From: a virus
Reading direction: 5' to 3' (one strand)
DNA length: 64,000 nucleotides
Virus record (IMG/VR): IMGVR_UViG_3300028536_000015
Coordinates: 1-64,000 of that record
Shown here: one piece after another, positions 2,955 to 37,823 of the stretch
Layout of the letters: each line of letters opens with the position of its first letter
How positions within the stretch are numbered: position 1 is the first letter of the stretch
The notes under the pieces: model-generated
The model's input: only the letters and a program-made list of their open reading frames with translations
Database searches by the model: none
Told to the model about the DNA's origin: nothing
Position numbers and translations under genes: made by a program

Positions 2955-3437
2955 TCATTGCTCTTCGTAGTGGATCGTTCCAGTTGCCGTGCCCGTATAA
3001 CCACCCGACCGCGTGCGAAGTTGGAACCCAGCCGAAGAGGTTGCGGGAGATACCAATTCGCCTCCAGGAGCAGCCACCCAACGATAAGAAGCGCGTTGGT
3101 TGACGCCGATATAGAAGACGTTCGAGTTCGCCGTGATGGTGCCGAACTGAGAACTGTTGACCGTCGTGGTCGTCAGCGACGCGGCGTCGGCTTGATCCAG
3201 CGGCTGGGGTGTCGCCGTGGTCGATGTCGAGGCCGTGGTAACCCGGCTGATGTCCCACTCGATAAAGTTATCCGCCGGGGTTCCATTCGTGCCAATCAGG
3301 ACATCATAGACCTTGATACGGCGCGCTGTTGCGCCGGTACCCGTAAGACCAAGCAGAGCGCCAACATAAGTGGTCGTCATGTTTTGCTGAGTACCAGCGC
3401 CGCTGGTGCTGCCGTTCGTTATGCTATAACGCGCCAT
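2955..3437 (-). CDS. Thr/Ser-rich head or tail decoration protein
   Basis: This 160-residue protein has roughly a third Ser plus Thr, and segments such as 'FYIGVNQRASYRWVAAPGGELVSPA', here given only by position (about residues 106-130), that recall small decoration proteins. The start ATG overlaps the stop of the upstream glycosyltransferase-like gene. It is inferred to be a virion surface component. Confidence 0.6.
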   Translation of the reverse strand: MARYSITNGSTSGAGTQQNMTTTYVGALLGLTGTGATARRIKVYDVLIGTNGTPADNFIEWDISRVTTASTSTTATPQPLDQADAASLTTTTVNSSQFGTITANSNVFYIGVNQRASYRWVAAPGGELVSPATSSAGFQLRTRSGGYTGTATGTIHYEEQ

Positions 3438-17245: not shown

Positions 17246-17309
17246 AAGGGCTTAGCTCCTAAATGGCTAATATCATATTTGCGCCTTAATGTAATGAGAC
17301 AATTTGGGT

Positions 17310-17693
17310 ATGAGAAAGAACGCGCTTTGGCCCATGGGCATCGTTGGTCTCGGAATACTTGCGCTTGGGTTACTTGGGGCAGCGGGCTTCTTTCATGCGC
17401 CTAAATCATTCCTTCAAGCACCTGCGCTCTGGTCTGATGTCTGTGTCAAGACGGATGCCTGTAAGCCTTTGCAATCCCCCAAGATGGTGAGCCATGAAAA
17501 AACAGGAACTAGAAGCGCTGTACGAGCAGATCGAAGTGCTGGAGCGAGTACGAAAGGCACAGGGGGAATTCGACGCAAACTCAAAAACCATCCTCATGCT
17601 GTTATCGACGGTACGCGAACTTGTAATCCATGCCATCGAGGAACAAAGCCGGGTGTCAAAACTCATCCGGTCCAAACCCAAAGGCTAGAATAA
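17310..17693 (+). CDS. Possible small membrane protein
   Basis: The reading from ATG 17310 begins MRKNALWPMG and has one strong transmembrane stretch (about residues 9-28). It is followed by a short Cys-containing segment. From about residue 62 the frame overlaps the next gene entirely and looks like a shadow. A genuine N-terminal membrane part is plausible as the first gene of the rightward cassette, but the C-terminus may be artefactual. Confidence 0.35.
   Translation: MRKNALWPMGIVGLGILALGLLGAAGFFHAPKSFLQAPALWSDVCVKTDACKPLQSPKMVSHEKTGTRSAVRADRSAGASTKGTGGIRRKLKNHPHAVIDGTRTCNPCHRGTKPGVKTHPVQTQRLE
17494..17688 (+). CDS. Small coiled-coil protein
   Basis: This 64-residue helical protein has a heptad-like 'LEALYEQIEVLERVRKAQGEF' start (residues 5-25) and a basic end SKLIRSKPKG. 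It precedes the acetyltransferase by 18 bases. It is unrecognised and may be a small partner of the sugar cassette. Confidence 0.55.
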   Translation: MKKQELEALYEQIEVLERVRKAQGEFDANSKTILMLLSTVRELVIHAIEEQSRVSKLIRSKPKG

Positions 17694-17706
17694 CGAGAGG
17701 GAAACC

Positions 17707-18258
17707 ATGACGCCGATTGATGAATACGATCAGCCCGTTCTCGCAAAGAGAGCAAATTTTCTACAAACCAAGGGACTATCTCTGGTTCCGATCAATGAGA
17801 ATATTCGGGATTATTCCAGATGGCTCAATGATCCTGAGGTCGTTAAGTTCTCAGAACTTCGCCATCGTTCGCATACCCCTGAAAGCTGCATAGAGTACAT
17901 CAAGGGCTTTGATCAGATCGATAACTGCATGTGGGCGATCTATGCCATCGGTCCTGACATGCATATCGGGAATATCACCATCCACATCGATCCCAACAAC
18001 AACGTCGCTCAGATGGGCATGCTGATCGGTGAAAAGTGGGCATGGGGACGCAAATATGGCCGGGAAGCATGGGGGGCCGTAATGACCTGGGCGAAGACTC
18101 AGAAAATCCGCCAAGTCGAGGCTGGTTGTATGCTCAATAACGTTGGCATGCGCCGCATCATGATACTTTGCGAAATGTTGCATTGCGCAACCGTTGAAGG
18201 TCATTTCTTGCTTGATGGAGCCATTATCTCCAAAGCCATCCACCGGAAGATATTCTGA
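17707..18258 (+). CDS. GNAT N-acetyltransferase, possible PseH role
   Basis: This 183-residue GNAT enzyme has an N-terminal 'SLVPINENIRDYSRWLNDPEVV' (about 25-46), the usual strand-turn of the RimJ/PseH branch. A central 'MHIGNITIHIDPNNNVAQMGMLIGEK' follows, with the acetyl-CoA site around 'KYGREAWGAVMTWA'. In pseudaminic acid synthesis PseH acetylates the 4-amino group of the UDP-sugar made by PseB and PseC, both of which are present downstream. The assignment to that step is contextual. It overlaps the next gene by one base (TGATG). Confidence 0.75.
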   Translation: MTPIDEYDQPVLAKRANFLQTKGLSLVPINENIRDYSRWLNDPEVVKFSELRHRSHTPESCIEYIKGFDQIDNCMWAIYAIGPDMHIGNITIHIDPNNNVAQMGMLIGEKWAWGRKYGREAWGAVMTWAKTQKIRQVEAGCMLNNVGMRRIMILCEMLHCATVEGHFLLDGAIISKAIHRKIF

Positions 18259-19070
18259 TGCATAAAACGAAAGAGTTTTGGGACCAACAGGCTGAGAAGC
18301 ATGGCGCTGATCAAGCCGCGACAGCGCCAGACCATTTCTACCGCGATAACATCGAGATCAAGCGCATCGTTGAAGTCATGACGATCATGGAGCCGGAAGC
18401 TATCTTGGATATAGGCTGCGGTAATGGCTATTCCACGATCGAAATCGCCAAGAAGTTTCCGACATCGATGGTGATCGGGGTCGATACTAGCGAAAAGATG
18501 CTCGAAGAGGCCCGAGAGGCCGCCAAGGGCATCAATAACATCACCTTTTTCCAGGGTGATGTCCTTACTCTATCCTGGCATCCGAAATTGCAGCATCAAA
18601 AGTTCGATGTGGTGCTCAGTGTGCGCTGTTTGATCAATCTGGACAACTGGGAAGAGCAAAAACTCGCCATTTTGCAGATGCGAAAGCTTCTGACGCCGGA
18701 CGGTTCTCTGATTTTAGTCGAAAACACCAAAGAGGGACTGGATAAGCTCAATTTGCTCCGTCAGATCGTGGATTTGCCCCCGATCGAACAGCGATGGCAC
18801 AATAATTACATCCCGGAAGACAAATTGAAGCAGTTTGTCGCTGAAAACAACCGAAAACTGTTCCAACTCATGGCAATGGAGAACATCGGGAACCTCTACT
18901 ACATCATTTCGAGGGTGGTTTATGCCAAACTTGCGCAAATGGAGGGCAAAGAGCCATCCTATGATCACCCACTCAATGAAATAGCATCTCAACTGCCTAG
19001 CCTGGGCGATCATTACTCATGTTCACCGAACTATATGATGATCTTAGAGAACATCCCGGACGAAAGTTAA
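18258..19070 (+). CDS. SAM-dependent methyltransferase (class I)
   Basis: This 270-residue methyltransferase has motif I 'ILDIGCGNGYSTI' (about 50-62), an acidic 'GVDTSEKMLEEA' motif II and 'FDVVLSVRCLINLDNW' (motif IV region). It resembles small-molecule and sugar methyltransferases and not DNA enzymes. In this cassette it could methylate a nucleotide sugar or the finished glycan. The substrate cannot be read from the sequence. Confidence 0.8.
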   Translation: MHKTKEFWDQQAEKHGADQAATAPDHFYRDNIEIKRIVEVMTIMEPEAILDIGCGNGYSTIEIAKKFPTSMVIGVDTSEKMLEEAREAAKGINNITFFQGDVLTLSWHPKLQHQKFDVVLSVRCLINLDNWEEQKLAILQMRKLLTPDGSLILVENTKEGLDKLNLLRQIVDLPPIEQRWHNNYIPEDKLKQFVAENNRKLFQLMAMENIGNLYYIISRVVYAKLAQMEGKEPSYDHPLNEIASQLPSLGDHYSCSPNYMMILENIPDES

Positions 19071-19091
19071 TCAGCAACAAAGGAAAGAGAC

Positions 19092-19367
19092 ATGACACAG
19101 AAATTGGACGCGAAATTCTCTGGCGTAATTTTTAAGATCAAGGATGGATCGATTGTCAGCGACGACGAGTATGTGGTATTCTTGGCAAAGGATACCGCAT
19201 TCTATGAGACACTTCCGACCTATCGCCGTAAGTGCATTGAGCTTGGTGCCGATCAAGAACAGATCGCGGCAGTCGATCGCATGATCGCAAGAGCGACTGA
19301 TTGGCGGCATGCTAATCCCGATCGCTGCAAAGTTCCTGATGCTAAGGGTGAAAAGCTGGTTGGTTAA
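19092..19367 (+). CDS. Hypothetical cassette protein
   Basis: This 91-residue soluble protein begins MTQKLDAKFSGVIFKIKDGS and contains 'EYVVFLAKDTAFYETLPTYRR'. The order, a short beta hairpin followed by 'Lys-Asp' and two helices, recurs in uncharacterised small phage proteins. It is preceded by GGAAAGAG as a ribosome site and lies between the two methyltransferase genes. Confidence 0.6.
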   Translation: MTQKLDAKFSGVIFKIKDGSIVSDDEYVVFLAKDTAFYETLPTYRRKCIELGADQEQIAAVDRMIARATDWRHANPDRCKVPDAKGEKLVG

Positions 19368-19392
19368 TTAATCCCGCATCAAGAAGAAAGTA

Positions 19393-20037
19393 ATGGGCAA
19401 GCAGGAAGATATCTTTCTGGAGAGCGAGGGGGACGCGTGGTTTGAGCGAAATATATACAAAGTTCGTGAGGATGTCCACGCAGACCCCGTTATCCAGCTC
19501 GTTCTCAGGCATTTTAATACCGGCGAGCCATTGGGGGTCCTAGAGATAGGATGCTCCAATGGCTGGCGCTTGAGCGAACTCCATAAAATCTACCATTGGT
19601 TCTGTTACGGCATCGATCCTTCAGCCGAGGCCATCAAAAACGGCCTGATGAGGTTCGGCAACCTGGAGAAACTGAACCTTACCCGAGGTTCAGCGACGGC
19701 TCATCCTTATCATTCCGCAACCATGGATATGATCATCTATGGTTTTTGCCTCTATGTGTGCGATCCCGAAGAGCTGTTCGAGATCGTTACGCAGGCCGAC
19801 AATGCTCTAAAAGACGGCGGCTCAATCATCATCCATGATTTTGACGCAGAGTATCCTCATTCTGTCCCCAATCATCATGTAGAAGGATTGATATCTTACA
19901 AGATGGATTGGAGCAAGCTTTGGCTATGTCATCCGGCATATAGATTGGTCGAGAAGGTATCATTTGCAGACGGAACCGCTGTCTGGCTTCTTAGGAAATC
20001 TCAGGGAGATGCGTTTCCGTGCTCATCGGCATCTTAG
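19393..20037 (+). CDS. Second SAM-dependent methyltransferase
   Basis: This 214-residue protein has motif I 'GVLEIGCSNGWRLSEL' (about 51-66), 'CYGIDPSAEAIKNG' and a long 'HSATMDMIIYGFCLYVCDPEEL' segment. This is the architecture of class I methyltransferases found in flagellin and polysaccharide modification loci. It overlaps the start of the oxidoreductase by 19 bases, indicating coupling. The sugar or glycan acceptor is unknown. Confidence 0.78.
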   Translation: MGKQEDIFLESEGDAWFERNIYKVREDVHADPVIQLVLRHFNTGEPLGVLEIGCSNGWRLSELHKIYHWFCYGIDPSAEAIKNGLMRFGNLEKLNLTRGSATAHPYHSATMDMIIYGFCLYVCDPEELFEIVTQADNALKDGGSIIIHDFDAEYPHSVPNHHVEGLISYKMDWSKLWLCHPAYRLVEKVSFADGTAVWLLRKSQGDAFPCSSAS

Positions 20038-20888
20038 GGTTTGGTTCGATTGGAATGCGTCATGGGCGCAATCTCATGGATATCGGGCATCAGGTTGTTT
20101 TCCATGATCCTGGCGTTCTCGGCAGCATAGATCGTGATGTTCTAATCCGAGAGGCGGATGCGGTCATTATCTGCACGCCAACGATACGGCATGCTCTTGA
20201 TCTCTGCGATGTCTTGCAGGCAAGGAAGCATGTCCTGGTTGAGAAACCCATTGGTTATGACTGTCCTCCATATATCTCGGGCCTCATCATGGGCGCGCGG
20301 TCAGCAGCGAGAGATTTGGTAGTCGCTACTGGGTTCATGTGTCGGTTTCATCCTGAAGTTCAGAGAGCAAGGAGCATGATAGATTATGGCTACTTCAACA
20401 AAATCATCGATGTGCAATTCGATGTTTTACAAAAAAATAGCAAACCTGAATACTTGCGTGATGGTGTTATCCGAAATTGGGCTTCGCACGAACTCGACTT
20501 GGCTAGATATCTCTTGGGAAATCTCTGTCTAGAAAAAGCTGATGTTGGCGTTTCTCTCGATCACCAAGACATTTCTATGGTAGCTGATCTCTATAGCATA
20601 GAGCATGACTGTCCTGTGATTATACGAGCCGATTACATTACCAGTCCAGAGTTTAGAAGATTTTCTATTCAAGGCAATAAAGCTGTAGCCGTCGCGTTTA
20701 ATCTAGTGCGAGGAGAGGCCGTCTGGGACCAAACCTACGTGGATGAACTCAAGGCATTCATCAATGCGATCGATGGTAAGGACCCTGGACCGCTGGCAGA
20801 TGGTGCAGATGGTGTCGCGGCTCTTCAACTCGTCATGGACATAAGAGAGAAGGTTGGATTGGAAGATGAGCAAAAGAAGAACATTTAG
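20019..20888 (+). CDS. Gfo/Idh/MocA-family oxidoreductase
   Basis: This 289-residue NAD(P)-dependent sugar dehydrogenase starts at GTG, inside the previous gene. The N-terminal Rossmann fold shows 'IGILGFGSIGMRHGRNL' (GxGxxG), and 'VLVEKPIGYD' near residue 75 is the conserved EKP motif whose Lys takes part in hydride transfer. The C-terminal half is a short alpha/beta domain with 'WASHELDLARYLLG'. Enzymes of this family oxidise or reduce nucleotide-linked sugars, including steps in nonulosonic acid pathways. Confidence 0.85.
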   Translation: MLIGILGFGSIGMRHGRNLMDIGHQVVFHDPGVLGSIDRDVLIREADAVIICTPTIRHALDLCDVLQARKHVLVEKPIGYDCPPYISGLIMGARSAARDLVVATGFMCRFHPEVQRARSMIDYGYFNKIIDVQFDVLQKNSKPEYLRDGVIRNWASHELDLARYLLGNLCLEKADVGVSLDHQDISMVADLYSIEHDCPVIIRADYITSPEFRRFSIQGNKAVAVAFNLVRGEAVWDQTYVDELKAFINAIDGKDPGPLADGADGVAALQLVMDIREKVGLEDEQKKNI

Positions 20889-21072
20889 ATGCGAGTTATG
20901 TGAAATGAATTATCCGGTAGAACCGGGATGGACTGACGACATGGCAAAGGAGGAGTTTCGTCGTCTTTATCCAGGGCAGCCATTCAAGAATGTCGCCAAA
21001 ATCTGTGATGACTGCCATAAAATGGTCGAGATATGGCGCCAGGAGAATGAGGGAAAGAGGACGCTTCAATGA
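20866..21072 (+). CDS. Small zinc-ribbon protein
   Basis: This 68-residue protein starts at ATG 20866 inside the end of the oxidoreductase gene. It has two CxxC knuckles, 'FRCELCEMNYP' and 'KICDDCHKM', about 40 residues apart, as in zinc ribbons. Such proteins are frequent in phage accessory regions. Role unknown. Confidence 0.6.
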   Translation: MSKRRTFRCELCEMNYPVEPGWTDDMAKEEFRRLYPGQPFKNVAKICDDCHKMVEIWRQENEGKRTLQ

Positions 21073-21081
21073 GACTTCCTC

Positions 21082-21591
21082 ATGAAGCCAAAACACAAGA
21101 TATCTCAGACTACGCTCAAGCATCATCTAAAATATGATCCTGAAAGTGGAATATTCTACTGGAGACATTCCACCTATCGAACTGACCTAATTGGCAATCA
21201 AGCTGGGTACATTGATCGACGTGGGTATATCCGCATTAAGATTGGATCGATTACATATCTAGCTCATAGACTAGCCTACATCTACATGACCGGAACTAAT
21301 CCTCCAGAGCTTATCGACCATAAGGATAACAACCGACAGAATAATCGATGGATAAACATCCGTTCAGCTACACATGGGCAAAATGTCTCAAACTCCTCAG
21401 GATGGAAAAAGAGAAAAATAAAACTACCCAAAGGAGTGTACAAACATTCCATGTCAGCAGGATATTTTGCCATGATCGTAGTAGACAGAAAACGTCACTA
21501 TCTTGGCTCCTTCAAAACAATAGAAGAAGCGAAAGCTACCTACATTTCCGCCGCCATAAAATTCAAAGGCGAATTCGCGAGGGCTTCATGA
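21082..21591 (+). CDS. HNH homing endonuclease with AP2-like domain
   Basis: This 169-residue enzyme has an N-terminal helix-strand 'LKHHLKYDPESGIFYW', the HNH core 'PELIDHKDNNRQNNRWINIR' (about 73-92) with following 'GQNVSNSSG', and an AP2-like C-terminus 'YFAMIVVDRKRHYLGSF'. It is clearly related to the second half of the endonuclease at 7353-8159. The TGA overlaps the ATG of the cytidylyltransferase fusion, so it slipped into the sugar operon without breaking the downstream frame. Confidence 0.85.
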   Translation: MKPKHKISQTTLKHHLKYDPESGIFYWRHSTYRTDLIGNQAGYIDRRGYIRIKIGSITYLAHRLAYIYMTGTNPPELIDHKDNNRQNNRWINIRSATHGQNVSNSSGWKKRKIKLPKGVYKHSMSAGYFAMIVVDRKRHYLGSFKTIEEAKATYISAAIKFKGEFARAS

Positions 21592-23576
21592 CTAAAACCG
21601 TTGCCATATGCCAAGCTAGGATGTCCAGTACCCGCTTACCGGGAAAGGTTATGAAAGACCTTGCGGGAAGACCTGTAATAGATTGGGTGGTAGAGGCCGC
21701 CAAACACGCTCCCGGCGTTGACGAGGTCATAGTTGCCACCTCCATAGAACCTGCGGATGACGTGATTGCGGAGTGGGCTACACATAAGGGAGTAGCATTA
21801 TACCGAGGATCGTTAACTGATGTCATGAGCCGATTTGTAGGAGCGGCCAATCAAACCAACGCCGATATTATCGTTCGCTTGACCTGTGACTGTCCTCTGC
21901 TTGACCCGAATGTAATTGGAGAAGTGATCCAACTCAGGAAAATAAAAAATGCAGACTACGCCTCATGTACTGATCCTCCCTCGTATAGTGACGGTCTCGA
22001 TGTCGAGGTATTCACGCGGGGAACTCTGGAAAGCGCCAATCGGGAAGCAACGCGAGGAACTGACCGAGATACTGTTACTCGCTTTATGGTTCGCAATCGT
22101 CATAGGTTTCATGCTGTTAATTTGGTCTGCTCGCTTCCTAATCTCGCTCGTGAACGGTGGGTCCTCGATAGTCCAGAGGATTATGAATTCATCCTGGAGA
22201 TCGCAAAGAGGCTTGGCGGCGGCAGAAATCCACCGTCATACCTTCAGATTTTGTCGATCCTTGATAAGGAGCCATCACTCCGGGCGATAAACAACATGCA
22301 CTCTCGCAACGAGCGCTTCTATGAGGCGCTTGCTGCGGAAGGCTCTAGCAAACGATCATATCATAATTCCAAGATGATGCTAGCTAAGGCTGAGGCTTTG
22401 ATCCCCTTGGGAACGCAGACCTTCAGCAAGAGCAAGCTGATGTTCCCGGAAGGAGCAGCGCCACTGTTCGTAACCCATGGAGATGGGGCCTATGTCTTTG
22501 ACGTGGATGGCAATGATTATGTTGATTGCGTCGGAGGGCTTCTGCCTAATATCCTTGGCTACAGAGACCCCGATGTGGATAGCGCTATCCGCGATCAGCT
22601 ATCTAGCGGGATTAGCTTTAGCCTTGCGACCCCTTTAGAAGAGAAACTAGCGGCGCTGCTCCATAAGCATATTCCATCCGCTGAGATGGTGAAATTCGGC
22701 AAGAACGGCAGCGATGTCACGACTGCCGCTGTCCGTCTTGCGCGCCATGTCACCGGACGAGATATGGTCATGGTAGGTGGCTATCACGGCTGGCACGACT
22801 GGAGTATGGCGGTTAGTGAGCGCCATAATGGCATCCCCTGGGATGTCCAAAAGCTTTCCGATAGTCTGCACGCTGATAAAGAGCGGTTTAGCTCATACGC
22901 CGCCATGATCATTGAGCCTGAGTTCTATTCCAAGGAAGAGCTACAAGGCATCCAAAAACTATCCCTTGAATATGGGTTCCTCTTGATCTTTGACGAGATC
23001 ATCACTGGGTTCCGTTGCGGGTTGGGGGGTTTGCAGAAAGTCCATGGGGTGGCGCCTGATTTGTCTTGTTTTGGCAAATCCATGGCCAACGGCATGCCGA
23101 TATCTGCCTTGGTCGGACTTGAGAAATACATGAAACACATGCCTGAGATTGCTTATTCAGGCACGTTCTTTGGCGAAACACTATCGATCGCAGCGGCGAT
23201 TGCGACCATCGAAAAGTTGGAACGCGAGAGGGTCCCGGTTTGGTTACTGTCCCTTGGTATCTCTGTCTATGCCAATGTTACAACCCTGATCCAGAAGGCC
23301 AGATTGACTGAGTATATCTCATTGTATGGCCCTATGGAGCTAAATCGCATCAAGTTCAAGAACAATGGCGTCCAGAGCCTGTTCATTCAGGAGATGGCCA
23401 AGAACGGCGTGCTCATCATCGGTAGCCACAACCTCAGCTTTGCTCATGGTAAAACCGAGCTGGATATCATCACCAGAGCCTGGGAAAAGACACTGGACAA
23501 GCTTGCTGAAGCGGCGAGTTCCAATATCCTGGATCATCTCGATGGCGGTCTCGTCATGGCGAAAGGCGTCAGATGA
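21588..23576 (+). CDS. SpsF-like cytidylyltransferase fused to class III aminotransferase
   Basis: This 662-residue fusion starts at ATG 21588; longer readings overlap the HNH gene in another frame. Residues 1-240 form an SpsF/PseF-type nucleotidyltransferase: 'AICQARMSSTRLPGKVMKDLAGRP' (6-29) with the CTP-binding Arg/Lys, and later the 'RLTCDCPLLDP' metal-binding Asp. Residues 260-662 are a glutamate-1-semialdehyde aminotransferase-like, fold type I PLP enzyme. It shows 'LIFDEIITGFRCGLGGLQ' and the Schiff-base lysine in 'LSCFGKSMANGMP'. Fusing CMP-sugar activation with an amino-transfer step points to one sugar product handled in series. Confidence 0.85.
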   Translation: MTKTVAICQARMSSTRLPGKVMKDLAGRPVIDWVVEAAKHAPGVDEVIVATSIEPADDVIAEWATHKGVALYRGSLTDVMSRFVGAANQTNADIIVRLTCDCPLLDPNVIGEVIQLRKIKNADYASCTDPPSYSDGLDVEVFTRGTLESANREATRGTDRDTVTRFMVRNRHRFHAVNLVCSLPNLARERWVLDSPEDYEFILEIAKRLGGGRNPPSYLQILSILDKEPSLRAINNMHSRNERFYEALAAEGSSKRSYHNSKMMLAKAEALIPLGTQTFSKSKLMFPEGAAPLFVTHGDGAYVFDVDGNDYVDCVGGLLPNILGYRDPDVDSAIRDQLSSGISFSLATPLEEKLAALLHKHIPSAEMVKFGKNGSDVTTAAVRLARHVTGRDMVMVGGYHGWHDWSMAVSERHNGIPWDVQKLSDSLHADKERFSSYAAMIIEPEFYSKEELQGIQKLSLEYGFLLIFDEIITGFRCGLGGLQKVHGVAPDLSCFGKSMANGMPISALVGLEKYMKHMPEIAYSGTFFGETLSIAAAIATIEKLERERVPVWLLSLGISVYANVTTLIQKARLTEYISLYGPMELNRIKFKNNGVQSLFIQEMAKNGVLIIGSHNLSFAHGKTELDIITRAWEKTLDKLAEAASSNILDHLDGGLVMAKGVR

Positions 23577-23779
23577 GCACTGTTATCATGAAATTAACGG
23601 TGCCTTCTGATTGGGATGGCCAACAGTTGAAGCCAGCCGGCACTATTGGTTTAAGACAAATCTGTCTAAACCGAACTAACTGGATGGCCCATGATCAGCT
23701 AAGTTCGATCATCATACCTGATGGTGGCCAAATTATCATCAGACGCGATGGTCATACGATCTATATTGAGCGACCATGA
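23573..23779 (+). CDS. Hypothetical small cassette protein
   Basis: This 68-residue, probably beta-rich protein begins MSTVIMKLTVPSDWDG and ends 'IIIRRDGHTIYIERP'. It overlaps the fusion gene and pseB-like gene by four bases each (ATGA junctions), so it belongs to the operon. No family is recognised. Confidence 0.6.
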   Translation: MSTVIMKLTVPSDWDGQQLKPAGTIGLRQICLNRTNWMAHDQLSSIIIPDGGQIIIRRDGHTIYIERP

Positions 23780-24696
23780 AAGTCCTTATCACCGGAGGCT
23801 CAGGTAGCTGGGCGCAGGCTTGTGTTAAACGCCTCCTAGATGACAAGTTGGCTGACCGCATCGTTATATATTCTCGTGGTGAGCACCTTCAAGAGGAGAT
23901 GGCGCGACGCTTTAATCATGATGATCGCCTCAGGTTCGTCATAGGGGATGTTCGTGACCGTGATCGACTTGAGATGGCGATGTATGGGATTGACACAGTT
24001 CTCCATGCTGCGGCCCTTAAGATCGTTCCCACGGCTGAGTATAATCCTTACGAATGCGTGCAGACCAACATCGGAGGAGCTGAAAATGTTGCTAGAGCTA
24101 GTCTTGCTGCTGGCGTACAGCGCGTTATCGCTCTTTCTACTGATAAATCAGTCTCTCCTCTTAACCTCTATGGTGCGACAAAGCTTGCTGCTGAGAAGAT
24201 TTTCGTGGCAGCAAATAATATGTCTGCTGGTCGATGTAGCTATTCTGTCTGCCGCTATGGGAATGTCGTTAATAGTCGCGGGTCTGTGGTTCCGCTATTT
24301 AAACGACTTGCCAATGCTGGAGAACGTCTACCCATCACTGATCCACAGATGACCCGGTTCTGGATGACGCTGGATCAAGCTGTTGATCTCGTGCTGTCGT
24401 CTCTAGAGATGATGAAGGGTCGGGAAATCTTCATTCCAAAGATACCATCTGTGCGAATTGTTGATCTTGCCGCCGCTATTTCGCCAGAGTGTGGGACTAA
24501 GATTACCGGCATCAGACCGGGGGAGAAACTCCACGAAGTCTTGATGACACAAGAGGAAGCCAGAGGTGCTCTGGAGGCCTGGGATCGCTTTATCGTAAAT
24601 TCTGACGGCGTATCCAACATCAAAGAACCAAGGACCTATTCTAGTGATAGTAATGGCGATTATCTTAGTTTGGAAGAAATTAAGAGATATCTATAA
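23776..24696 (+). CDS. pseB: UDP-GlcNAc 4,6-dehydratase, PseB-like
   Basis: This 306-residue short-chain dehydrogenase begins 'KVLITGGSGSWAQACVKRLL', a nucleotide-binding motif with Ala in place of the last Gly. The decisive segment is 'IALSTDKSVSPLNLYGATKLAAEKIF' (about 118-143), which holds Thr-Asp-Lys and Tyr-x3-Lys as in PseB. It is followed by 'YGNVVNSRGSVVPLF' and a C-terminal 'GIRPGEKLHEVL'. PseB removes water from UDP-GlcNAc and inverts C5, the committed step to pseudaminic acid. PseC- and PseI-like genes follow. Confidence 0.88.
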   Translation: MKVLITGGSGSWAQACVKRLLDDKLADRIVIYSRGEHLQEEMARRFNHDDRLRFVIGDVRDRDRLEMAMYGIDTVLHAAALKIVPTAEYNPYECVQTNIGGAENVARASLAAGVQRVIALSTDKSVSPLNLYGATKLAAEKIFVAANNMSAGRCSYSVCRYGNVVNSRGSVVPLFKRLANAGERLPITDPQMTRFWMTLDQAVDLVLSSLEMMKGREIFIPKIPSVRIVDLAAAISPECGTKITGIRPGEKLHEVLMTQEEARGALEAWDRFIVNSDGVSNIKEPRTYSSDSNGDYLSLEEIKRYL

Positions 24697-24702
24697 GAGG
24701 GG

Positions 24703-25791
24703 ATGATGGTGAAACTATTCACGACCATAGGAAACGATGAAGAAGAAGCTGTCCTGAGGGTTCTACGCAGAAAGCAGCTCTCTGGATATATAGCCGGGAA
24801 GGATACCTCTGGTGTAGAAGTCAATCGACTAGAGACTAACTGGGCTGAGTTCTTCGGCGTCAATTACGCGATTGCGTGCAATTCAGCCACGTCTGGGTTG
24901 CTCGCGGCCTGCATGGCAATCGGCGTGGGTCCTGGCGATGAAGTTATCGTTCCCTTTTTGACCATGTCTGCCACAGCCTGCGCTCCGAATGTTCTTGGGG
25001 CGCAGATCGTGCTTGCGGACGTTGATGAGAACCTATGTATCGATGTCAACCATGTCGGTAAGCTCATCAATGAGAACACCAAGGCTGTCATCGCGACCAA
25101 CCTATTCGGCCATCCAGCGAAACTAGCACAGTTGCGCGGCATGTGCGACAGCGTCAACGTCTTCCTGATTGAAGACAATGCGCAGGCCATAGGCGCGAAA
25201 GAAGGAACCCGCTACACCGGGACCATAGGTCATATCGGCGTGTTCTCGCTGAACTACCATAAGCAAATCCAGGCTGGTGAAGGTGGCGTGTGCGTCACAG
25301 ATAATTATCTTTTGAACATGAAGCTGCGTGGCGCCATAAATCATGGCGAGCACATGAAGCTCGATTTCCCAGGGCTGAACCTGCGCATGACCGAGATCAC
25401 AGCCGCTATCGCCATAGAGCAACTTAAGAAATTACCAGATATTCTGGAAGCTAAAGAAGAAGTGGCACGCGCCATCATTGGTCATATGAAACGATGTAGT
25501 TACATCAATCCACCTCCGACCCGCGATAATTGCACGAACGTATATTACGCCCTGCCGTTTCAGGTTATTGAGGGCTTCAGCCTCATAAGCGTTATTGCTC
25601 ATTTTCAAAGTAAATCAGGTCTTAATCTCTCGCTGGGTTATAGCAATCTCATGAAACTTAGGATCGGTGATAAATGGGTAAAGGACAAATGCCATAAATA
25701 CCGAGATGTAAGTAGGTTAGTCCTTCTGGAGATGTACAGCGATGACATCACGATGGATAGCCTGAAGCATATGGAGAAGGTATTCACATGA
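24703..25791 (+). CDS. pseC: DegT/DnrJ/EryC1 aminotransferase, PseC-like
   Basis: This 362-residue PLP-dependent sugar aminotransferase has 'YAIACNSATSGLLAACMA' (about 52-69) and 'VIVPFLTMSATA' as the start of the cofactor site, then 'FLIEDNAQAIGA' with the ring-binding Asp. The Schiff-base lysine region is 'VFSLNYHKQIQAGEGG'. In PseC the enzyme adds an amino group to C4 of the PseB product, and its place directly after the PseB-like gene fits. A second ATG one codon downstream is an alternative start. Confidence 0.87.
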   Translation: MMVKLFTTIGNDEEEAVLRVLRRKQLSGYIAGKDTSGVEVNRLETNWAEFFGVNYAIACNSATSGLLAACMAIGVGPGDEVIVPFLTMSATACAPNVLGAQIVLADVDENLCIDVNHVGKLINENTKAVIATNLFGHPAKLAQLRGMCDSVNVFLIEDNAQAIGAKEGTRYTGTIGHIGVFSLNYHKQIQAGEGGVCVTDNYLLNMKLRGAINHGEHMKLDFPGLNLRMTEITAAIAIEQLKKLPDILEAKEEVARAIIGHMKRCSYINPPPTRDNCTNVYYALPFQVIEGFSLISVIAHFQSKSGLNLSLGYSNLMKLRIGDKWVKDKCHKYRDVSRLVLLEMYSDDITMDSLKHMEKVFT

Positions 25792-26003
25792 CCGACGAGG
25801 AACTGTTAGATCAGATCACCAGAGTTCGCGCGCAGAATAACGTCAATTGGGTGGAACTCTTAAGGATCGCATTACGCGCTGATCCCAAGGCCACCAAGGA
25901 GGTTCTTGGCAAGGTTCTTATCATGGACCTCCAAGTGAGTAGGCTCACCAGAGCCCTGTCCGCGACAGACTGGAAGCCCAGGGACCTGGAGGACAAGAAA
26001 TGA
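25788..26003 (+). CDS. Small helical cassette protein
   Basis: This 71-residue protein is likely all-helical: 'NNVNWVELLRIALRADPKATKEVLGKVLIMD' spans about residues 17-47 and is followed by a basic end. It overlaps both neighbours by four bases, so it is translationally coupled between the PseC- and PseI-like enzymes. Similar small helical proteins occur near NeuB-family genes. Role unknown. Confidence 0.6.
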   Translation: MTDEELLDQITRVRAQNNVNWVELLRIALRADPKATKEVLGKVLIMDLQVSRLTRALSATDWKPRDLEDKK

Positions 26004-27043
26004 AAATAGGCTCACGGGAGATCGGACCGGATCATCCTCCTTATATCGTGGCCGAATTATCTGCTTCGCATCTAGGAGACATCAATAACGTATTCAGGCT
26101 GATCGATGAGGCGAGACATGCTGGCGCTGATGCCGTCAAGCTACAGGCCTACACACCAGATACGATTACGATGGATAGCAAGAATGCTGACTTTCTCATC
26201 AAGGAAGGTCCCTGGAAAGGACGATATCTCTTTGACCTTTACGCAGAAGCTCACGTGCCTTTTTCGTGGATGGAACGTATATTTGATTATGCTCGCAACG
26301 TTCGTTGCATCGAGATATTTGCATCTGTTTTCGACGAGAGCGCGGTTGGTCTCATGGAAGAACTTTATGCCCGTGCTTACAAGATTGCGAGCTTCGAGTT
26401 ATCTCATCTCCCTCTCATCAGGAACGTAGCGGAGACCAATAAGCCGATTATCTTGTCTACTGGGATGGGTTCCACCAAGGAAATCCTGGACGCCATGAAC
26501 GTCATCAACAAGTTCTCTCTCAAGCCTGATATCGCCCTGCTTCATTGTGTCAGCGCCTATCCGACACCTGCCAGTCAGGCCAACTTGCCGGCGCTAGGGC
26601 CTTTGAGCGAACTCCTGGGAGGGAAACATGTGGTTGGTCTGTCTGACCATACTCTTGGTATTGCTGTGGCTGTATCTGCTGTTTGCTACGGTGCGACCAT
26701 CATTGAAAAGCATCTATGTCTTAGTAGGAGCGCAGGTGGCCCTGACGCTGATTTTAGTCTGGAACCTGATGAGTTCACAGCCCTGGTAAAATCATGCCGC
26801 GAGGCATGGGAGGCTACTCGGCCGTCGAAGTCTCCGGATCAGAAGGCAAATCTTCAATGGCGTCGGTCGATTTATGTAACGAATCCAATTTCCGAAGGCG
26901 AGCCTCTGTCCAAGGAGAATATCCGAGTGATACGGCCAGCGAACGGGCTTTTGCCGTCATTTTACCCGTCCGTTTTGGGGCGAAAGGCAAAGGTGGCCCT
27001 GCAACCTGGGACTCCATTATCTCTCGATCACTTACTCTCATAA
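26000..27043 (+). CDS. pseI: Pseudaminic acid synthase, PseI/NeuB family
   Basis: This 347-residue enzyme condenses phosphoenolpyruvate with a 6-carbon amino sugar to give a 9-carbon nonulosonic acid. The TIM barrel shows 'YIVAELSASHLGDINN' (about 14-29), 'GADAVKLQAYTPDTITMDS', 'FLIKEGPWKGRYLFDLYAEA' and 'AYKIASFELSHLPLI', the last two matching PseI better than sialic acid synthases. The C-terminal SAF antifreeze-like domain begins 'RRSIYVTNPISEGEPLS' and ends 'GTPLSLDHLLS'. The last 230 bases are overlapped on the other strand by an HTH gene. Confidence 0.9.
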   Translation: MKIGSREIGPDHPPYIVAELSASHLGDINNVFRLIDEARHAGADAVKLQAYTPDTITMDSKNADFLIKEGPWKGRYLFDLYAEAHVPFSWMERIFDYARNVRCIEIFASVFDESAVGLMEELYARAYKIASFELSHLPLIRNVAETNKPIILSTGMGSTKEILDAMNVINKFSLKPDIALLHCVSAYPTPASQANLPALGPLSELLGGKHVVGLSDHTLGIAVAVSAVCYGATIIEKHLCLSRSAGGPDADFSLEPDEFTALVKSCREAWEATRPSKSPDQKANLQWRRSIYVTNPISEGEPLSKENIRVIRPANGLLPSFYPSVLGRKAKVALQPGTPLSLDHLLS

Positions 27044-35183: not shown

Positions 35184-35198
35184 TCTGTAACCCATCAC

Positions 35199-35779
35199 TC
35201 ATGTTGCTGTAGCCAGTTACATATCGTCTGGCGCAGGTACAACAAGGGTTCAATAGAATTTTTTATAAAGAGTCGGGAGACCAAAGAAGTCTCAGACCCC
35301 GCCGGCCCTTTCCCTAGCGGCCCTGCCCCCGGCCTGGGTCCCTTTCCCATATCATACTACCTCACCCTATAGCCCTAGGGGCGCCCCAGTGCATAGGCAC
35401 ATCACACATGCAAGCCATTGATATCATTGATGTATCGCAACGTAGTTCCATAATAGATGTTATGCGAACTGTGATGTGGACACGTGTGGGTGCGTGGAGA
35501 TGGGGAAGAGCGCGGACAGACTACGTATTGCCCTATCTTCCTGCTCGATAGTCTTGGATATCTTATCTGTGCCTAGGGAGGCACGAGAGAGCGGGACAAC
35601 AGGTCTTATGCATCTATTGTGCATCTCTAGCACACCCTCTGTAGGGGCTTTGCAGGGGTAGGTGTGCGGGGAAAATGTTGCGCTGGGGTCTAAGCTCGGG
35701 AGAGCGTTGCGCGCCCTGGTGCGCCTGGAGACATGCACAAATGCATTGCTGCTATGCGTCAGGCAATTATACCCGGATA
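35199..35779. other. Non-coding stretch between divergent blocks, left part
   Basis: No convincing gene is present. Several short perfect hairpins occur (GTGCCT/AGGCAC at 35569-35584; TGTGC/GCACA at 35619-35635), together with many 'ATGCAT/CTATGC' words. On the minus strand TTGTTG (35240-35245) and TATGTA (35218-35223), 16 bases apart, could be a promoter for the leftward operon. The stretch at 35281-35340 is C-rich. Confidence 0.45.
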
Positions 35780-36440
35780 GCTTAGCAGCTCTGGTGACTG
35801 TGAACATTGTTCACTCATAGCTCCTATGCAATTATGCATGGATTGCTTGCACTTAGCAAGAGCTATGTTTGTTTGCATACCTGCTATGCGTTTGCCCCAC
35901 TAACCCAATTTGTACAAAGGCGTATGTACATCGGGTGAGGCGAGGGCTTGGTGCTCTCGCGGAGATACCCGATACCCTTGGATTGAGCCTCCCGCCTGAT
36001 TGGCGCGGGACACCAGCGAGGTGCAGCTAGCACCATATCGCGGCCAAGTGGCGAACTATAAGCCACAGCGCTCCAGCCCTTACGGTTTCGCACTTGCGAT
36101 AACCCTGGCGACACTAGCGACCAACAGTCCGTTAGTGACTGTGTTAGAGTAGGGGCATGTTCTACATGCTGGCGAGGGCTTTCGAGCTAGTAGCCAACCG
36201 AGGGTAGCACGGCGGGACCGAAAATCGGGTAGCACTCCATTGCGAGTGTGTGGCGCGGCCACAATACCTAAAAGTCCTCTCAAGGCAGCGCCTCTCGACC
36301 GTGGCCTATTCCTTGAGATGATACCAAGTTTTGCATTGCACTTAACATGGTCACAATGAGCTTGGAACGCAGGCTAGCGCTTGCGAAAGGTAAACAGCCG
36401 CTTCTCACGAGCCTGACGCTTTCGCCGCACTGCTGGCGCT
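35780..36440 (+). ncRNA. Candidate large structured non-coding RNA
   Basis: About 660 bases hold at least eleven perfect helices in tandem and nested order. Examples are CATAGCT/AGCTATG (35816-35822 with 35861-35867) enclosing two stem-loops, and ATCGGGT/ACCCGAT (35930-35973) enclosing GCGAGGGC/GCTCTCGC. Others are TCCCGC/GCGGGA (35990-36010), GCGA-GGTGC/GCACC-TCGC (36016-36041), CCAG-GGTT-CGC/GCG-AACC-CTGG (36073-36108) and TCTCAAGG/CCTTGAGA (36278-36318). A G:U pair in the second favours the plus strand. No open frame with sensible composition covers it. It may be an ornate RNA of the GOLLD/ROOL kind or an operon leader. Confidence 0.55.
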
Positions 36441-36473
36441 TACAAGCTCTTCCCTTTTCCTCTTAGACTACCG

Positions 36474-36600
36474 CTAATGTTACCTAGTGGGGCTAGCTCG
36501 GAACTACATTCCAGGCTGGCCTTACTGCGAAGCATTACGCTTCAGACATGAGAAAGCAAGAAAATGCATTCTCATGCTTTTTCTTGAGAGGGAAAACTAT
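36474..36600 (+). promoter_or_regulatory. Tripartite hairpin element 1, with extra hairpin
   Basis: First copy of the recurring element. AATGT pairs loosely across a GCTAGC-GGAA/TTCC-GGCTGGC stem with GCGAAGCATT, and the same GAAGC can instead pair with GCTTC (36531-36543). A second structure, CATGAGAA/TTCTCATG, with alternative AGAAAGCA/TGCTTTTTCT pairing, precedes the GAGAGGGAAA ribosome site. Confidence 0.6.
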
Positions 36601-36603
36601 ACC

Positions 36604-36783
36604 ATGGTCGCAGATCAACGCAAAGGTGCGCGTGCTCGTGCTCGGAACCGTATCAACACCATGTTGGACAATATGGTTGCCGCCAGCGAAACACCGCAAA
36701 CCGCCACGTTCTCTAACGCCGCATGTTCCTCCGATATGGAGCATATGCGTTGGGCCGATGATGGCGGGCGACATCACGACTAA
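36604..36783 (+). CDS. 59-residue basic protein
   Basis: This gene starts at ATG 36604 after GAGAGGGAAAACTATACC and ends at the TAA that begins the next hairpin element. The product begins MVADQRKGARARARNRINT, a basic helix, and ends DMEHMRWADDGGRHHD. Unknown function; the basic arm suggests nucleic acid binding. Confidence 0.6.
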   Translation: MVADQRKGARARARNRINTMLDNMVAASETPQTATFSNAACSSDMEHMRWADDGGRHHD

Positions 36784-37732: not shown

Positions 37733-37823
37733 ATCGCTTCTGTCCTGCCGCGTACCTAATAAGCCTTGAGGAAGGCTTCTCAGGCTTTCTCAAGTACGCG
37801 GCAGTGAGAAGCGATTAAGCTTC
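37732..37823 (+). promoter_or_regulatory. Tripartite hairpin element 4, longest copy
   Basis: Arm A AATCGCTTC (37732-37740) pairs perfectly with arm B GAAGCGATT (37808-37816). The inner stem CTGCCGCGTAC/GTACGCGGCAG (37745-37755 with 37794-37804) is perfect over 11 pairs and carries an apical GCCTTGAG/CTCAGGC hairpin. GAAGC of arm B can instead pair with GCTTC (37819-37823). The sequence of arms A and B differs from element 2 yet pairing is kept. Confidence 0.75.

Follow-up and report, generated by a model that had tools for sequence, protein, structure and literature searches.

The analysed window comprises bases 1-64000 of an IMG/VR record of 73,364 bases and belongs to a phage in which portal, terminase and head proteins were identifiable. 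The best terminase match in the phage collection was 46% identical, and no close relative of this phage was found in that collection. The locus under study is a non-coding gap of 1.35 kb between leftward genes, the last of which starts at 35198, and a rightward operon whose first ATG is at 36605 and which encodes a 335-aa protein, a MoxR-like ATPase and a VWA-type protein. The last of these is presumed to be of VWA type from its position beside the MoxR-like ATPase, its PHROGs family name being HNH endonuclease. An earlier sequence-only reading had proposed a large ornate non-coding RNA at 35780-36440, directly upstream of the operon and lacking any credible gene. The location was correct, and the lack of genes was borne out for 35200-36600: open reading frames of the gap gave no Pfam matches, and tblastx between homologs lit up many frames on both strands and favored none. 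Elsewhere in the window, positions 17304-27043 carry genes of sugar or surface-polysaccharide type (NeuB-like, aminotransferase, SDR epimerase and methyltransferase; translations judged by eye).

Relatives were retrieved from IMG/VR with the MoxR-like ATPase and the 335-aa protein of the downstream operon as anchors. Five syntenic relatives were obtained (L002, L007, L008, L009, and L022), all with a homologous non-coding block and a common layout: the leftward genes are followed by a GC-rich hairpin that ends in CCCTT or a near variant of it, then by TATGC/GCATA palindromes, the RNA block and the operon. The first genes of the operon were not the same between relatives. Short islands of identity were found in the RNA block: CCCACTAAC..ATT.GTAC just upstream of the start in three genomes including the window, GGACYRTGGCTAGG in three genomes, and CGARAGUA in most. 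A second non-coding element, at window positions 35236-35352, was conserved in all six relatives; it consists of an AT-rich stretch followed by GC-rich hairpins ending CCCTTT or a close variant and may be a small RNA with a terminator or a leftward control region. The following features, all on the plus strand, were assigned.

35883 to 35928: promoter-like element GCTATGC-N8-CACTAAC-N18-TATGTA, with the same spacing in six homologs.
35930 to 35973: 5' hairpin AUCGGGU...ACCCGAU with inner arms GCGAGGGC/GCUCUCGC, from sequence and fold; specific to the window and absent from the homologs.
35935 to 36466: conserved structured RNA, with homologous blocks in L002, L007, L008, L009, and L022; putative start, with the pyrimidine tract as its end.
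35991 to 36009: hairpin P1, CCCGC-CUGAUUGGC-GCGGG, with the conserved loop GAU(N)(A/G)GG.
36016 to 36041: hairpin P2, GCGA[GGUGC AGCUA GCACC]AUA UCGC, with the loop AGCNA.
36048 to 36066: hairpin P3, GUGGC-GAACUAUAA-GCCAC; the loop in relatives is GACAGAYAA.
36126 to 36224: P4/P5 domain with the motif UAGNNNNNCGARAGUA, matched by a hold-out model.
36278 to 36318: helix P6, UCUCAAGG (36278-36285) with CCUUGAGA (36311-36318); counterpart helices in other letters in all six genomes.
36326 to 36343: hairpin P7, AAGU...GCAUUGC...ACUU, with the motif GCATTGCA(Y)CTT.
36358 to 36449: terminal helix P8, GAGCUUG (36358-36364) with CAAGCUC (36443-36449); counterparts in different letters.
36449 to 36466: pyrimidine tract CUUCCCUUUUCCUCUUAG, complementary to the Shine-Dalgarno (SD) region of the first gene.
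36584 to 36597: SD region of the first operon gene, UUGAGAGGGAAAAC, assigned from the sequence, ahead of the ATG at 36605.

The conserved unit therefore differs in extent from the 35780-36440 first proposed; it covers ~530 bases in the window and ~460-780 nt across homologs. Its shape is kept in at least four phages and traceable in all six while the letters change. The central evidence came from P1, P2b, and P3, for which covariation was computed on sequence-only alignments with shuffle and slide controls. P1 was paired in 25 of 25 cells across five homologs, with two-sided changes at three of its five pairs and a covariation score reached by 2 of 500 shuffles. For P2b (95% paired) and P3 (100% paired), each across four homologs, two-sided changes affected four of five pairs and none of 500 shuffles reached the observed score. 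All three scores exceeded every slid control, and G-U changes of RNA style were present in P2b and P3. These three hairpins are thus kept through two-sided changes across homologs, as is expected of a conserved structured RNA. With six sequences the covariation events are few, and the alignment is uncertain outside P1-P5. The global MAFFT alignment of the whole RNA was poor and RNAalifold z scores (−0.8 to −4) were similar on both strands, and for this reason local helices were relied upon. A candidate pseudoknot between the P1 loop and CCUAA was dropped as it was unsupported in L009.

The P4/P5 domain, in which 36139-36146 pairs with 36191-36194 and 36209-36212, was examined with a covariance model (R1) trained on L002, L007, and L008 only, the window being held out. 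The best match outside the training set was window 36126-36224, at 19.2 bits with no nonstandard pair and an E value of 0.0086 in 148 kb, such values being rough owing to short calibration. R1 failed to recover L009 and L022, and the domain is therefore deduced to have diverged there. Covariation of the P4 helix was weak, with arms interchangeable between phages. For P6, comparison with a fair null gave strong support in L009 and L022 and marginal support in the window and L002, whereas L007 and L008 did not reach significance. The GCATTGCA(Y)CTT motif of P7 lay near the RNA 3' end in five of six homologs, L022 having GCATCTT. Counterparts of P8 were clear in L002, L007, and L009, less regular in L008, and absent from L022. 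When the arms of seven helices were swapped between phages, pairing was 59%, compared to 98% for own arms, a difference overstated by the choice of arms by eye. Beyond the retrieved relatives, a blastn search of the phage collection with the window region returned a single weak match of 50 bases (E 0.1), and neither the L007 and L008 RNAs against phages nor the L007 RNA against plasmids gave any. A scan of genome assemblies for the GGCATARCGTYCC... motif gave zero matches; a motif-scan match in L005 was rejected as a chance match inside a coding region.

The sequence-only reading had rested on perfect helices, many of which are indeed present, and on their density. Measured against dinucleotide shuffles, region 35780-36440 did fold better (z = −4.8), but this was not discriminating: its reverse complement gave z = −4.7, coding controls of the same length ranged from +0.8 to −4.2, and the homologous RNAs at the same locus ranged from 0 to −2.1, with one homolog at 0. 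Because the antisense strand and coding DNA score similarly and the homologs score so low, folding energy was concluded to be no evidence here. The case shows that folding energy alone would have misled and that comparison decides. It was the comparative folding with related phages, as the earlier reading had suggested, that supported a real structured RNA, through the covariation of P1, P2b, and P3 and the hold-out model match. Among the individual elements first described, the stem at 36016-36041 (P2) proved conserved with two-sided changes, but the hairpin at 35930-35973 is window specific. The conserved RNA does not include the proposed three-way junction (35816-35867), which is found among short TATGC/GCATA palindromes upstream of the promoter-like element, and the long stem at 36073-36108 lacked covariation support and shared only an invariant CCA.../...TGG core. 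The assignment to the plus strand, originally drawn from a G:U pair, held: z scores of the P1-P3 domain in four homologs were −1.5 to −4.0 for the plus strand against +0.8 to −1.3 for the minus strand, so that it is chiefly the plus-strand fold that is better than chance. Sequence comparison thus supports a large structured RNA, non-coding and read from the plus strand, at this locus. That an mRNA leader might be at issue had not been considered.

Just ahead of the RNA, the pattern G[C/T][C/T]ATGC-N8-7mer-N18-TANNNN was found with exact spacing in all six genomes, where its last part reads TATGTA, TATGTT, TATCTT, TAGGTA, TATGTC, or TAGGGA; it is the sole match in the window, and a constant 40-nt architecture precedes the RNA in every genome. 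In the window, CACTAAC occupies the −35 position and TATGTA (35923-35928) is −10-like. The element is not a good sigma-70 match. Since this promoter-like spacing is fixed in all six, 35883-35928 is presumed to combine a promoter and a binding site upstream of it, and transcription would begin near 35935. A left boundary at the beginning of this upstream zone fits with L009, in which a 115-codon open reading frame on the minus strand overlaps it. Upstream of the RNA in L002 (4128-4475) and L007 (4305-4490), two to three repeats were seen of nearly perfect hairpins whose loops measure 3 nt, e.g., ATGCGAA-TGG-TTCGCAT. Such hairpins resemble the promoters of the N4 virion RNA polymerase; use of N4-like hairpin promoters was rejected, as no frame that could hold such a polymerase was found in the window or the last 10 kb of the record.

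At the other end of the RNA, the MFE fold of the window's leader has the tract CUUCCCUUUUCCUCUUAG base-paired to GAGAGGGAAAA. The MFE fold from tract to ATG contained a tract-SD helix in all six genomes, each thus having a segment complementary to the first SD and predicted to pair with it, as in an SD-masking leader. In full-length ensembles, the expected number of tract-SD pairs was 10.3 for the window, 9.1 for L002, 7.0 for L007, and 5.8 for L009; pairing was thus strong in four of six, weak in L022 (3.2), and lost in L008 (0.1). The window value of 10.3 compares to 6.6 for shuffled tracts. Shuffling of the tract only lowered pairing with p values of 0.017, 0.083, 0.35, 0.10, 0.083, and 0.033 in the six genomes, roughly 0.002 when combined by Fisher's method. 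It was concluded that the order of the tract probably matters beyond its composition, with a modest combined effect; the evidence is modest because pyrimidine tracts in general pair fairly well with purine-rich SD sequences. L022 has neither a hairpin before the tract nor a run of four U, so that a normal terminator is unlikely there, and its tract-SD pairing can run over eight continuous bases. In four relatives, a hairpin preceding the SD changes by compensation (GGCA/UGCC, GGC/GCC, GUCC/GGAC, and GACC/GGUC; aligned, with pairing judged by eye).

From these data, the RNA is hypothesized to be a long cis-regulatory, SD-masking leader, a reading given about an even chance of being right and favored because of the 3' tract and of structure that runs on into the first SD. 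The promoter-like element at 35883-35928 would drive transcription, and the RNA would form the first part of a ~670-nt leader of the operon beginning at 36605. The P1-P6 body may be a sensing or protein-binding part; the tract at 36449-36466 would close the first gene's SD by pairing with it, and a change in the body, or the binding of a factor, could open or close translation of that gene. The existence of the RNA is well supported by sequence comparison, and the start, co-transcription with the operon, switching, and a sensed factor are proposals of this model. Against the leader stand the weak terminator-like character of P8 and CCCUUUUCC, the modest tract evidence, and the weak or lost ensemble pairing in L022 and L008. 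First genes that differ between phages are, moreover, unusual for a dedicated riboswitch.

A possible but doubtful alternative is a free-standing, trans-acting phage RNA of ~530 nt ending at P8 and CCCUUUUCC, which might bind protein, pair with the operon's many AAGAGGGAAA SD sites, or form GOLLD- or ROOL-like multimers. Its size class, ornate multi-hairpin body, and own promoter-like element would suit such an RNA. P8 and the pyrimidine tract form the 3' end in most relatives and resemble a weak terminator in the window and several of these, with one flagged in L002, and the same hairpin-plus-CCCTTT form recurs near 35345. The U runs of the tails, however, are interrupted and no longer than four, L022 lacks the hairpin altogether, and structure continues as far as the first SD. 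No plus-strand promoter-like site was found from 36466 to the first gene, in a scan that likewise fails to detect the element ahead of the RNA. In each operon region, 11-16 SD sites are complementary to the tract, and on this basis a new class could be envisaged of large stand-alone, possibly multimeric phage RNAs whose tail controls the whole operon via AAGAGGGAAA ribosome-binding sites, a proposal regarded as unlikely. The leader was placed first and the free RNA second because of the tract-SD pairing, the anti-SD sequence of L022 without P8, and the compensating hairpin before the SD. Ahead of many operon genes, a repeated intercistronic hairpin GAAGC(4-7 nt)GCTTC directly precedes the unusually uniform SD AAGAGGGAAA (window 36823, 37141, 37809, 38101, and others; also L002, L007, L008, L009, and L022); the loop of this hairpin is similar to that of P7, AUUGC.

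It is improbable that the 1.35-kb divergent gap is a DNA-level element, i.e., a replication origin or regulatory hub with hairpins acting as DNA and possibly a primer RNA. The divergent position, the AT-rich stretch at 35250-35275, the GCATA/TATGC palindromes upstream in relatives, and replication initiator-like and helicase-like genes in the genome would fit an origin. The conserved hairpins, however, show a plus-strand fold preference and RNA-style G-U changes, GC skew has no turning point at the locus, and the palindromes lie upstream of the RNA rather than inside it and show no enrichment in the window itself. That a non-coding spacer merely folds by chance, as the failure of whole-region energy to separate the region from coding DNA might suggest, is very improbable and was already disfavored by the compensatory changes, conserved loops, and hold-out model match.

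The earlier likeness to GOLLD, ROOL, OLE, and HEARO was not upheld by an Rfam covariance-model scan: at the gathering threshold no family matched the window RNA region or the L002, L007, L008, and L009 RNA blocks, and a permissive scan (E up to 10) of the window region and L007 did not list these four. The sub-threshold matches in the RNA region were mostly of microRNA type and were rejected as chance. GOLLD, ROOL, and OLE are large RNAs that form homo-oligomers by cryo-EM, and GOLLD and ROOL are encoded in phages and prophages near tRNA islands (PMC12286853). No tRNA array adjoins the present RNA, no tRNA was found in the window or L012, and the tRNAs of relatives are single isolated ones in L002 and L008 only; that of L008 is a tRNA-Gly(TCC) at 3048-3121, in the strand-switch gap ~0.8 kb ahead of the RNA. 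With GOLLD, the RNA shares phage encoding, many hairpins over several hundred nucleotides, and a variable 5' part (PMC12286853), but it lacks a covariance-model match and a tRNA array and heads an operon. With ROOL, it shares phage encoding, a length of ~530-660 nt, and elaborate helices, but not model match or tRNA islands, and it has a 3' anti-SD tract. OLE and HEARO share the size class only, also without a covariance-model match. Like SD-masking riboswitch or protein-responsive leaders, it is a structured leader with a last element that should, by prediction, base-pair with the first SD, but its body is far larger than usual, without a known ligand domain, and its first gene is unconserved. 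In a separate observation, L002 6648-6755, within a phage operon, significantly matched Rfam RF02496 Atu_At1 (83.4 bits, E 1.9e-12), and a long hairpin at window 37740-37805 is similar to this region. Atu_At1 is a Rhizobiales sRNA, and the match points to a host in that order and to an sRNA that arose in, or was captured by, phages.

The RNA is most fittingly described as new and unclassified, conserved within a single phage lineage and so far unique to these ~73-kb uncultivated phages. To our knowledge, large structured phage RNAs are few and their functions unknown. Homologs of the present RNA occur in six genomes; it occupies a defined position heading an operon and, in the proposed pairing of tract and SD, offers a testable mechanism of a kind that is lacking for GOLLD and ROOL.
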